From the NCBI GenBank assembly GCA_020832985.1, contig JAJHRE010000009.1, forward strand, positions 1 through 35,028: a stretch of DNA of 35,028 nucleotides. Direction: 5' to 3'. The stretch comes from Desulfurococcaceae archaeon. GTDB lineage: Archaea > Thermoproteota > Thermoprotei_A > Sulfolobales > NBVN01. Numbering within the stretch: the stretch's first letter is position 1; each line of letters opens with the position of its first letter. Below, in pieces: positions 18,030 to 35,028 of this stretch. Made by a program: the position numbers and the translations under genes. The notes under the pieces were generated by a model. The model was not told where the DNA came from, did no database searches, and worked only from the letters and a program-made list of their open reading frames with translations.

Positions 18030-18281
18030 CTAGGCAGATAACCTCACCTTAATATCGTGGACAACTGGGTTGTAGATCCTTAACTTATAGCATATATCCC
18101 TAACGTAGTTTAACGCTTCCTCAGGTGTTTGAGAATCAACTAAGAACTCTAGGTACTTACCAGACCTTACATCCTTAACGTTAGCATACCCCCTCCTACT
18201 TATCAATTCCTTATGGATTGTCTCTCCTTCAGGGTCCCTAACACTTCTCTTATTAGTTATTACGACCTCAACTACGTACAT
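18030..18281 (-). CDS. purS: Phosphoribosylformylglycinamidine synthase subunit PurS
   Basis: 83 residues, the normal size of PurS, which bridges PurL and PurQ in the FGAM synthase complex. The pattern fits: a first strand MYVVEVVITNKRSVRDPEG (the 'DPEG' turn is a family hallmark, followed by a helix) and the later strand-helix EFLVDSQTPEEALNYVRDIC. ATG 18281 lies 10 nt inside the purC 3' end. Confidence 0.94.
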   Translation of the reverse strand: MYVVEVVITNKRSVRDPEGETIHKELISRRGYANVKDVRSGKYLEFLVDSQTPEEALNYVRDICYKLRIYNPVVHDIKVRLSA

Positions 18282-19260: not shown

Positions 19261-20655
19261 TTATATAATCCCTAATTTATGGAGTACTCCCCTACCTGCT
19301 AAGACTCCAGTAGCTGAGGCTACGTTAATACCTCTTGAGAGTCCTGCACCATCGCCTGCTACGAATATGTTCTCGATAGTTGTCTCTAAGAACCTATTAA
19401 CTACTGCTCTAACACTATAGTACTTTATCTCAGGTGCGTATATTAGTGTTTGGGATGAGGCTACACCAGGTATTATACTATCTAGTCTTTGAAGTCCTTC
19501 AATAATGTTTGTTAGTACTCTATAAGGTAATGCCATAGATATATCCCCAGGTGTTACGTCCTTAAGTGTTGGTCTTATAGAACTCCTGTTAATCCTATCC
19601 CAGGTACTCCTCCTACCAGCCTCTAAATCACTAAACCTCTGAATCAGTGGTTTACCACCGCCTAACTTCGTAGACAGCCTAGCTATACTCTTCCCGTAAT
19701 CTATAGTGTCTTCTAATGGGTTAGTCAACCTAACAGTAGAGAGTAATGCGAAGTTAGTGTTCCCGCTATGCCTATCACTATAGGACTCACCGTTAACACC
19801 TACTGTCCCGTCATCGTAGACCTCCTTCAGCACATAACCTCCGGGGTTGGTACAGAACGTCCTTACCTTATCATCGAATGCCTTAGTATACATCACTATC
19901 TTAGGATCCCTAACAACTCTAGTAACCTCATCCATAACTACTGACTGAACCTCAACCCTAACACCAACGTCTAGAGGTCCTGGGAGGACTGCAATACCTA
20001 ACTTCTTAGTGATGTTTGAGAACCACTCAGCCCCAGACCTACCAGTAGCTAATATCAAGTACCTACATACTAACTCACCATTACTTGTCTTGACTACGAA
20101 CCTACCACCACTACCTACTATGTCGTGGGCTTCAGTATTAGTCACTACCTTAATACCCCTACCCTCGAGGTATTTAGTGAAGTTCTCAATAACTTCTATA
20201 GCCCTCTCACTCCCTATATGACGTTGTTTTATTGGGATGAAGGTAGCTCCAGCCTTAATAGCCCTCTTCTCTAAAACCTCTACCATCTCAGGGTCAGGGG
20301 TATATAGCTTAGAACCACTACTGAACTTCACCACTACATCATCTACATACTTAATCAACTCCTCAGCAACTTCCCAACTACCTACTAACTCATGTAGCTC
20401 ACCACCTATATCAGGTCTTAAGTTTATTAGGAAGCTACTTAACGCACCAGCACCGCCGATACCGTTAAGTACTAAACATGGCTTACAATACATACACTTA
20501 CCAGTATGTATTAACGGGCACTTCCTCACCGTAGCTCTAGGACCTTTATCGATCAGGACAACTCTTAAGTCCTTACCACCCTTCTCAACTATTTCATAGG
20601 CTGAGAACAGCCCTGCAGGACCCCCACCAACTATCGCTACATCACATTCGATGAT
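19261..20655 (-). CDS. FAD-dependent dehydrogenase (COG2509-like), apparent ATC start
   Basis: 464 residues if started at ATC 20655. The FAD motif [18 protein letters not shown] (residues 5-22) is intact but lies upstream of the first canonical start, GTG 20529 (codon 43), and just after two in-frame TGA codons, so no ATG/GTG/TTG can start the full protein. The SD GGAGGTGAT ends 5 nt before the ATC. Further motifs: a Cys cluster [15 protein letters not shown] (C46, C54, C57, C60), [12 protein letters not shown], and C-terminal [18 protein letters not shown]. This matches COG2509 flavoproteins of unknown substrate. Co-transcribed with purA (start 7 nt past its stop). Alternative: an ATG at 20660 with one extra base (ATGAACT rather than ATGACT). 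Confidence 0.8.
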
Positions 20656-20661
20656 AGTTCA

Positions 20662-21699
20662 TCACCTCCTAAGAGATCCGAAGACATCCTTCCTACGGTC
20701 TACCATAGCCTCAACCTCCTCACCAGTACCTACTAGAGTCACAGGTACCTTAAGTACTTCCTCAACCTCCTCCACCCACTTCCTAGCCTCCCTAGGTAAC
20801 TTACCCCACTCCCTAACATTCTGTGCATCCCTAAACAATACATCAATCTTAGTTATAGCTACTTGAGTTGCTGAGTTTATAGTTACAGCCCTCCTAGCTA
20901 ACTCATAATTAAATGGTGCAGCCCTCCTAACCCTACCAGTTACTGAGGCCTTCTCAAGAAATCCGAACTTAACTATATCATCATAGCTTAACTCATTAGG
21001 TAGTGGGCCCTCACCAACCCTAGTTACGTACGACTTAAAAACTACTAAGACATCATCAACTTTCTTAGGACCTAACCCAACCTCACTTAAAACCCCTGAA
21101 GCTGATGTATCCCTACTCGTTACGTATGGGTAGGTACCGAAGTATAGGCTGAGGTATAATCCTTGAGTACCCTCTATCAAGACCTCCTCACCCCTATCAA
21201 CAGCCTCATTAACCTCTAAAGCAACGTCCCTCAAGTAATTCTTAAGTTCCCCATAATCTCTAGCTAACTTAAGCACCCTCCTAACCCTATCAGCCATAGC
21301 CGCACCAACACCTTGTTTAGTACTCCCAATTAAGCTCATAACCTCATCACCTCTCTCCCTCATGACATGCTCATCAGTTATAACTCCAGTGTTAAAGTCT
21401 ACGAACACCCTACCATCACATTCAGCCTCCCTAACCTCGTTAAAGAATACTGGGATGCTTATTAAAGCACCTGCAGGTATATAGAGCCTACATAACTTAT
21501 GGAGGAATGCTGAGGGTATACTCCTTAACTTCCAAGTCCTACCACGGTACGTAACTGTATGCCCAGCATTAATACTTCCAGTCCTAACAGCTACTGAAGG
21601 CTTAATACTTAAACCTAGATACGCAGCTACCTTACCCTTACCCTCATCACCGAAGAACCCACCAACTACTACTGTTACCGGCGTAATATCCCTCAACAT
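20662..21699 (-). CDS. purA: Adenylosuccinate synthetase (compact archaeal type)
   Basis: 345 residues from ATG 21699; the frame extends to GTG 21744 without conservation. It converts IMP, aspartate and GTP to adenylosuccinate, the first step of the AMP branch. The P-loop-like GGFFGDEGKGK (13-23), INAGHTV (43-49), TKQGVGAAMADRV and EGTQGLYLSLYFGTYPYVTS are PurA signatures. The length is that of archaeal PurA, about 80-100 residues shorter than bacterial enzymes. The start is not certain: a TATA-like TTTTAAATT at 21713-21721 is too close to this ATG for a standard leader. It diverges from a phosphoribosyltransferase gene and is followed by the FAD dehydrogenase. Confidence 0.92.
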   Translation of the reverse strand: MLRDITPVTVVVGGFFGDEGKGKVAAYLGLSIKPSVAVRTGSINAGHTVTYRGRTWKLRSIPSAFLHKLCRLYIPAGALISIPVFFNEVREAECDGRVFVDFNTGVITDEHVMRERGDEVMSLIGSTKQGVGAAMADRVRRVLKLARDYGELKNYLRDVALEVNEAVDRGEEVLIEGTQGLYLSLYFGTYPYVTSRDTSASGVLSEVGLGPKKVDDVLVVFKSYVTRVGEGPLPNELSYDDIVKFGFLEKASVTGRVRRAAPFNYELARRAVTINSATQVAITKIDVLFRDAQNVREWGKLPREARKWVEEVEEVLKVPVTLVGTGEEVEAMVDRRKDVFGSLRR

Positions 21700-29313: not shown

Positions 29314-30564
29314 TTAGGAGATGAGGGAGTCCTTAATAGTTGATGAGCCCTTAACGACTTTATTAGGCCATACCTTAGAGTTAATAATACTTACATTATC
29401 ACCTACGACTACGTTATTACCTACTACGCTATTCTCAATAACTACGTTACTACCTACCCTTACATGCCTACCGACCACACTATTAACTACCCTACTCTTA
29501 CTACCTATGAAGCACCTATCCATAACTACGGAGTCCTCAATAACTACACCATCACTCACTATGGTGTAGTGGTCTATGACTGAGTTCGTTATCCTAACCT
29601 TACTACCTAGGAAGACATGCCTACCTAGTAATATATCACCTTCTAAGACTATGTCACCAGCTTCTAACCTATCTATTATCGACTTACGTAACATTCTAGA
29701 GAGTTGTGTCTTACCCATAAACCTAATACCGTAGTGTATGTGGTCTACCTCTAACTCCTCAGGGCTTAACACCTTAAGGAGGTAGAACACAGCCTCCTTA
29801 TACGATTCAGGAGTACCTATATCGAACCAGTACCCCCTATATACATACCCGTAAACACCGTAGCCACACTCTATCAACTTAGGTATTACATGCCTACCGA
29901 AATCCAACTCACCACGCTCAAGTAGTTTCCTACCTACGCCGTAGTTGAAGAAATCTCTAAACTGTGGTGATAGTAGGTATATACCGGTGTTTACCAGTCT
30001 TGAAGGTGCTTCCGACGGACTCGGCTTCTCAACAAACCTCTTAATCCTGTAATCACTACATAACTCAGCAACACCGTAATGTCTTAACCTCTCAACATCT
30101 TCTATCTCCTTCAGGACTATAGTCATGTATGAGTCCTTAACATTATGGTACATCCATAAATCACTTAAGTCTACGTCGAAGACTACATCACCTTGAACAA
30201 CGAGTACGTGCTCACGTATGTCGTAGTAATCCATTACGATCTTAACAGACTCTGCATTACCTCTAGACTCTATATTGGGTTGATACCTAATCCTAACCTC
30301 CTCACCCTTAAGCCCTAACCTATAAGTGATACGTTCACCACTACCTAGATGGTCGAACAACCCAGTATAATTTACGTAACCACTAACACCTAAGTAGAAC
30401 TCCCTAACACCCTGTTTAGCCAGTTTAAACACTATGAAATCTATTAAAGGCTTATTTAAGAATCTAACCATAGCTTTTGAAGTATCCACAGTTAACGGGT
30501 ATAACCTAGTGCCTAAACCCCCTATAGGTATAATAGCCTTAGAGGGTGGGTTTTTGACAGTAAT
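29314..30564 (-). CDS. Sugar-1-phosphate nucleotidyltransferase with LbH domain, apparent ATT start
   Basis: 416 residues if started at ATT 30564. The catalytic loop KAIIPIGGLGTRLYPLT (9-25) is essential for the family, yet no ATG/GTG/TTG occurs between the upstream TAA (30567-30565) and it; the first canonical start, GTG 30489, would delete the loop. ATT 30564 is preceded by GGGAT 3 nt upstream and a TATA box 35 nt upstream, the same geometry as purC. The Rossmann-like domain holds VVQGDVVFDVDLSDL and RFVEKPS; the C-terminal third is a left-handed beta helix of hexapeptides (VVIEDSVVMDRCFIGSK and on). Likely makes NDP-glucose for the neighbouring glycogen synthase; the exact nucleotide is unknown. 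In an operon with GH57. Confidence 0.82.
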   Translation of the reverse strand: MTVKNPPSKAIIPIGGLGTRLYPLTVDTSKAMVRFLNKPLIDFIVFKLAKQGVREFYLGVSGYVNYTGLFDHLGSGERITYRLGLKGEEVRIRYQPNIESRGNAESVKIVMDYYDIREHVLVVQGDVVFDVDLSDLWMYHNVKDSYMTIVLKEIEDVERLRHYGVAELCSDYRIKRFVEKPSPSEAPSRLVNTGIYLLSPQFRDFFNYGVGRKLLERGELDFGRHVIPKLIECGYGVYGYVYRGYWFDIGTPESYKEAVFYLLKVLSPEELEVDHIHYGIRFMGKTQLSRMLRKSIIDRLEAGDIVLEGDILLGRHVFLGSKVRITNSVIDHYTIVSDGVVIEDSVVMDRCFIGSKSRVVNSVVGRHVRVGSNVVIENSVVGNNVVVGDNVSIINSKVWPNKVVKGSSTIKDSLIS

Positions 30565-34384: not shown

Positions 34385-34710
34385 ACCGAGCTAGTTTTTA
34401 AATTCTTAAGTAAATATTCATTAGCTAATACGGTATTAGAGGTCTTTCTATACTAGAAGATGATTAAACTCCATCTTATCGATTTAATATGTAGATAAGT
34501 ACTATAGGTAATAACTCTAGCAACATTAGATGAGGTCATAGTAAGTATAGCATCAATAGTGTTAGAGCTACAGCTTAACCTGTTTTAGTAGTGAGTTAAG
34601 GGGGTCTTAATGAATTTAATGTTTACTTAAATTACTATTAGTAATTTAGTTTATGTAAGTAAAAACCATTATTTTTAATATTGATATGATTATGAAGATA
34701 TTAACCATAA
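34385..34710 (+). other. Intergenic region without a clear gene
   Basis: The region is strongly AT-rich. It begins with a T-run (GCTAGTTTTTAAATTC, near 34390-34405) that may end rubrerythrin transcription. A 25-codon open stretch at 34511-34588 (TLATLDEVIVSIASIVLE) has protein-like composition but no start, promoter or recognisable match; it may be the remnant of a lost gene. No tRNA-like fold or repeat array seen. Confidence 0.4.
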
Positions 34711-34719
34711 CTTAAAATT
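34711..34719 (+). promoter_or_regulatory. TATA box of the oxidoreductase gamma gene
   Basis: CTTAAAATT is centred 26 nt upstream of ATT 34741. This is the leaderless distance seen at 2408 and 25014, and it places the RNA 5' end at the proposed start codon. Confidence 0.5.
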
Positions 34720-34740
34720 TATTGTTGGTGGTTGTTATAG

Positions 34741-35028
34741 ATTGAGATTAGATGGCATGGTAGGGGTGGTCAGGGGGTCTGGACTGTTAGTAACCTTCTA
34801 GCTGAGGCTGCTATTAGGGAGGGGAAGTACGCACAGTCTTTCCCGACTTTCGGGCCTGAGAGGATGGGTGCTCCTATAGCTGCGTTTACTAGGATATCTG
34901 ATAGTGAGATCGAGATTCACTCAGATATTTACGAACCTGATGTTGTAGTGGTTTTAGATTCTACGTTGGTTGGTTATGAGGACTTCATAAGTGGTTTGAA
35001 GAGTGGTGGTGTTCTACTCATTAATTTT
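34741..35028 (+). CDS. porG: 2-oxoacid:ferredoxin oxidoreductase gamma subunit (3' end outside window), apparent ATT start
   Basis: 96 codons are visible before the window ends. The sequence [20 protein letters not shown] is the standard start of gamma subunits of pyruvate/ketoisovalerate oxidoreductases, followed by [17 protein letters not shown] and [13 protein letters not shown]. Family proteins begin M-(x)-E-I-R, so ATT 34741 sits where the initiator Met belongs. The codon just before is TAG (34738-34740), and the next in-frame ATG is at codon 42, inside the conserved domain. TATA spacing of 26 nt suggests a leaderless mRNA; GGTGGT upstream could be an SD with long spacing. The enzyme links 2-oxoacid oxidation to ferredoxin. 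Other subunits lie beyond the edge. Confidence 0.85.

Follow-up and report, generated by a model that had tools for sequence, protein, structure and literature searches.

How is translation begun in a conserved metabolic gene when the codon on which its relatives start has become a stop codon? The question is raised by the last gene of the window, by which we mean the whole 35,028-nucleotide stretch that was analysed, a contig of a draft genome (G000; 1.42 Mb in 107 contigs, 82% complete). The reading frame of this gene opens with TAG at 34738-34740 and ATT at 34741-34743, followed by GAG ATT AGA TGG CAT GGT AGG GGT GGT CAG. The initial annotation placed the stop codon directly before ATT GAG ATT AGA and the next Met 41 codons in, and both statements proved exact, since the first ATG, GTG or TTG in frame after ATT is an ATG at codon 42. 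The features at issue, as seen in the window and in related genomes that include G004, G005 and G013, are as follows.

34738..34740, forward strand: TAG where the family has its canonical Met codon, as placed by the profile offset (TAG in G000, G005 and G013, TCG in G004, ATG or GTG in several relatives)
34741..34743, forward strand: ATT, the proposed start codon, identical in the window, G004, G005 and G013, which share no in-frame NUG nearby
34741..35028, forward strand: porG coding sequence, pyruvate/2-oxoacid:ferredoxin oxidoreductase (POR) gamma subunit, supported by TIGR02175 and by third-position-dominated differences from three orthologs

The encoded protein is the gamma subunit of POR. 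The frame is open up to the contig end, which cuts the gene and leaves 96 codons, and the TIGR02175 PorC/KorC profile matches it at 7e-43, with 146.4 bits against a curated cut-off of 81.1 even though only 96 residues are available. Because the contig ends inside porG, the neighbourhood was read in G013 (SKYB66, locus L003), where frames matching the POR delta, alpha and beta subunits come after porG, so that the gene heads a normal POR operon with the order gamma-delta-alpha-beta. Profile positions 2-96 fall on residues 1-95 of the frame. Since the match begins at profile position 2, the Met codon of the family corresponds to the codon before ATT, which is TAG here, and ATT corresponds to the former second residue.

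A panel of orthologs drawn from the 60 nearest genomes, all of them drafts from organisms of one order, shows that this arrangement is shared. The start region reads GGTGGTTATTA TAG ATT GAG ATT in G005 and G013 and GGTGGTCGTTA TCG ATT GAG ATT in G004, so ATT GAG is kept in three related genomes at 75-81% protein identity while the preceding codon is TAG in two and TCG in one. The initial annotation had proposed that the ATG of relatives might fall on the ATT codon; instead, the ATG or GTG of relatives lies one codon earlier, on the TAG. Read by eye, each of the 26 other orthologs of the panel offers an ATG, GTG or TTG in frame no more than about six codons upstream, in several cases precisely where the window has its TAG, and the window, G004, G005 and G013 therefore form an exceptional clade, in all four members of which the conserved N-terminus is without any in-frame NUG. 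The old start codon was probably a TTG that became TAG in G000, G005 and G013 and TCG in G004, as TAG and TCG are each one substitution away from TTG and such an ancestor could have been lost in either way.

The segment that follows ATT is constrained as coding sequence from its first codons. Over codons 1-41, the differences at first, second and third codon positions number 1/2/15 between the window and G004, 2/1/13 between the window and G005, and 3/2/17 between the window and G013; this preponderance of third-position changes argues that the codons are translated from their beginning. The next in-frame NUG, at codon 42 in three of the four genomes and at codon 70 in G005, comes too late to serve as the start, because the conserved HGRGGQG segment would be lost.

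Upstream of the ATT, the four genomes share two further elements.

34727..34734, forward strand: Shine-Dalgarno-like GGTGGTTG, with 10 nt from GGTG to ATT, kept in four genomes and able to pair with the anti-Shine-Dalgarno sequence
34699..34704, forward strand: TATTAA, probable TATA box, its centre at -25 from GGTG, with equivalents in three orthologs
porG leader: GGUGGUUGUUAUAGAUUGAG

The Shine-Dalgarno-like element has the form GGTGGTYR and ends its GGTG 10 nt before ATT in all four genomes, GGTG itself beginning 14 nt before ATT. With the archaeal anti-Shine-Dalgarno sequence, GGTGGTTG could pair over eight contiguous positions, of which two would be G-U. To place the TATA-like element in context, 126 Shine-Dalgarno-led genes whose upstream region is free were surveyed in G000 and G005; TATA-like hexamers peaked at a modal distance of 25 nt upstream of GGTG, counted from its first G, and in the four porG genes the corresponding centres lie between -24 and -26 relative to GGTG. 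This spacing implies that many messages in G000 and G005 would begin right at the Shine-Dalgarno sequence. The porG transcript, too, probably begins near GGUGG, and it would then have a short leader with the Shine-Dalgarno element at its 5' end. In this lineage, the spacing from GGTG to ATG starts has its mode at 5-8 nt and a tail at 9-10 nt, which puts the 10-nt spacer of the porG AUU in the tail and outside the mode. The optimum spacing of 7 nt is that of the TAG or TCG codon, in keeping with a start that was lost from this position.

The reading that these observations, all of them comparative, favor, to which we assign a probability of about 0.63, is that porG translation initiates on AUU by means of the initiator Met-tRNA after Shine-Dalgarno pairing. 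By this account, the ancestral NUG start was lost by single substitutions and translation would now begin one codon on, at AUU, read as a near-cognate codon by the initiator Met-tRNA, so that Met would still be the first residue. A transcript starting near GGUGG would have the Shine-Dalgarno element at its very beginning, and this element would position the ribosome with AUU in its P site, 10 nt of spacer lying in between. The AUU start proposed in the initial annotation is thus retained as the best-supported reading, although the ATT is the former second residue and not the canonical start residue that it was taken to be. Three observations count against AUU initiation: the spacer exceeds the 5-8 nt mode, the initiation factor aIF1, which counters starts on non-AUG codons, is present in the family, and a mini-ORF that precedes ATT is also conserved and would be compatible with frameshifting and with re-initiation.

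34728..34745, forward strand: out-of-frame mini-ORF GTG GTT GTT ATA GAT TGA, overlapping ATT, by direct reading, its frame open in three orthologs

This mini-ORF is needed only by these two rival models. The first, a programmed +1 frameshift, is unlikely. It would have translation start at the GTG at 34728, read GTG GTT GTT ATA GAT and slip at TGA into GAG ATT AGA, giving MVVID-EIRW; none of the four genomes interrupts the mini-ORF, whose changes are synonymous or exchange Val and Ile, and a clear signature of the same kind is present at the release factor aRF1 genes of the same order. The P-site codon before the TGA is GAT, however, which fails to pair anew once the ribosome has slipped by +1, in contrast to the NTT codons found at the aRF1 sites. 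In addition, GGTG at such a distance from a TATA element is the Shine-Dalgarno sequence of most first genes rather than a start, and canonical relatives begin just before residue 2.

A mixed group of explanations that invoke artefacts or other kinds of decoding (sequencing error, amber suppression, a UAG start, a later ATG start or a dead gene) is less probable still and is largely refuted by conservation. In favor of this group, the draft genome to which the window belongs is only 82% complete, and the initial annotation had named a read correction to ATG as one alternative; the agreement of four separate assemblies excludes a sequencing error. Selection on codons 1-41 speaks against a dead gene as well as against a later start, which at codon 42 (or 70 in G005) would also remove HGRGGQG. 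Suppression of TAG from an upstream start, the other alternative named initially, was rejected, no tRNA with a CUA anticodon being found among the 19 (G000) and 39 (G005) tRNAs in the fetched, incomplete parts of these genomes. Use of UAG itself as the start was rejected on account of the TCG that stands there in G004.

Re-initiation, by which the mini-ORF would be translated to its TGA and ribosomes would then begin again at the AUU that overlaps this stop (AUUGA, comparable to the frequent AUGA overlaps), seems quite improbable: the four genomes all have the mini-ORF stop overlapping ATT, but the sequence ATT GAG by itself brings this overlap with it, and there is no independent sign of mini-ORF translation. 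Least probable is the leaderless AUU start of the initial annotation, which took a TATA box at 34711-34719 to set the RNA 5' end on ATT, since the TTAAAA there, about 27 nt upstream of ATT, lies at -12 from GGTG and is absent from the orthologs, whereas the shared TATA element suggests a 5' end close to GGTGG, with the Shine-Dalgarno element at the beginning of the message; a transcript beginning on ATT would leave that element outside.

The aRF1 genes merit description in their own right. In most genomes of the family, aRF1 has no NUG start in its coding frame; there is instead an ORF of three to four codons ending in NTT, a TAG or TGA followed by C or T, and then the aRF1 frame (loci L259 in G000, also L199:1753 onward; panels L259-L288 and L300-L328). 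Within the family the form is GTG nnn nnn ATT TAG C/T in about two dozen of 30 genomes. In other families it is ATG AGT CTT TGA C in three genomes (G040, G050 and G059), and also ATG AGT ATT TAG, ATG AGY TTT/CTT TAG C and similar sequences; some aRF1 genes have a plain in-frame start. It looks as if aRF1 genes across the order carry a +1 frameshift of the RF2 type. The site in the three genomes is the same as the bacterial prfB site CUU UGA C quoted in a 2012 paper, according to which archaeal class-I release factors are without prfB-type autoregulation (PMC3521657), and a text search of a 2021 review of archaeal recoding found no mention of aRF1.

The factor aIF1 destabilises initiation at non-AUG codons in S. 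solfataricus (PMC6237735; PMC8211752). Its loss was considered as the cause of a relaxed choice of start codons and rejected, as 27 of the 31 family genomes, among them every one of the 11 of high quality, contain aIF1 (SUI1/PF01253). With a factor that counters non-AUG initiation present, any relaxed selection has no obvious cause. One tRNA-Met was found in each of the fetched parts of G000 and G005; both have G1-C72 and are probably elongators, and the initiator tRNA gene was not recovered in these incomplete parts.

The porG gene is not alone in the family, as a few others are without NUG starts too. From some 0.65 Mb of G000 and 1.08 Mb of G005, 441 reciprocal-best gene pairs were compared. 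At Shine-Dalgarno spacings of 5-7 versus 11-13, there was a small excess of the near-cognate codons CTG (11 versus 3) and ACG (9 versus 4). The first ortholog lists contained many antisense ORFs and overlaps with upstream genes, and a strict filter left seven cases, too few for statistics.

The gene for NMN adenylyltransferase (L216:16976-17512, reverse strand; L234 in G005) runs in both genomes for 24-26 codons before it meets an in-frame NUG, and ACG stands at GGTG+7 in G000 and G005 where G004 has TTG and most others have ATG or GTG, with CTG also seen; conservation just upstream is partly due to an overlapping upstream gene. A FAD-dependent oxidoreductase gene (window 20650-20670, reverse strand) reads GGAGGTGATGA ACT ATC ATC GAA near 20658, with a strong Shine-Dalgarno sequence (GGAGGTGA) followed by TGA ACT ATC ATC GAA; its next NUG is about 38 codons on, and G005 has ATG at the aligned place. 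One G005 gene has ATA at GGTG+5, at the place of an ATG in G000. In purQ (window 18035-18043, reverse strand), CTG follows GGTGA where relatives have ATG or GTG: the codon is CTG in the window, G013, G004 and G006, ATT in G014, and ATG in G005, G019 and G023. This CTG start is uncertain because the CTG genomes have a GTG five codons in, and a zinc-ribbon/OB-fold gene, with ACG where G005 has ATG, is likewise less secure, having an ATG five codons in. A nucleotidyltransferase frame at window position 30564 (reverse strand), probably another of four cases counted in the initial annotation, opens with TAA ATT ACT GTC AAA and has no NUG near its conserved start.

All secure cases, which are small in number, involve single-mismatch relatives of AUG; ACG, AUC and AUA stand at Shine-Dalgarno distance, as CUG probably does. 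Together these few secure genes, counted within this family alone, suggest a family-wide tolerance of near-cognate starts. A stronger proposal, that this family of the order Sulfolobales uses AUU, AUC, AUA, ACG and CUG as a normal repertoire, with porG, NMN adenylyltransferase and purQ drifting between NUG and non-NUG starts and being mis-annotated by standard gene finders, is put forward tentatively, as somewhat more doubtful than probable. Archaeal gene finders usually assume ATG, GTG or TTG. If the conserved AUU and the other near-cognate starts are real, start sites would be mis-called in this lineage, where the control of start-codon choice by aIF1, aIF2 and the initiator tRNA could be put to a natural test. 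The case of porG suggests that a start codon can turn into a stop codon without the gene escaping selection.

To our knowledge, AUU starts have seldom been reported in archaea, and a literature search, with most subscription papers outside its scope, found none. Among the known systems that porG resembles, the PorC/KorC family of TIGR02175 shares its sequence and, in G013, the subunit order, whereas the porG start is displaced by one codon and the Met codon is replaced by TAG. The short-leader archaeal mRNAs led by a Shine-Dalgarno sequence have a TATA element about 25 nt before that sequence at the predicted 5' end of the message, as porG does, but porG differs in its non-NUG start and its 10-nt spacer. 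Bacterial RF2 (prfB), with a short ORF, a stop and a +1 continuation, is similar only to the rival frameshift model, and porG, with GAT before its TGA, is without the slippery NUU directly before the stop that the aRF1 genes of the order have. AUU start codons are known in bacteria (E. coli infC and pcnB) and in mitochondria, and porG would share with them the use of AUU as a near-cognate start; it differs in belonging to an archaeon, in recurring in four genomes, in heading a metabolic operon and in having an old start that is now UAG or UCG.
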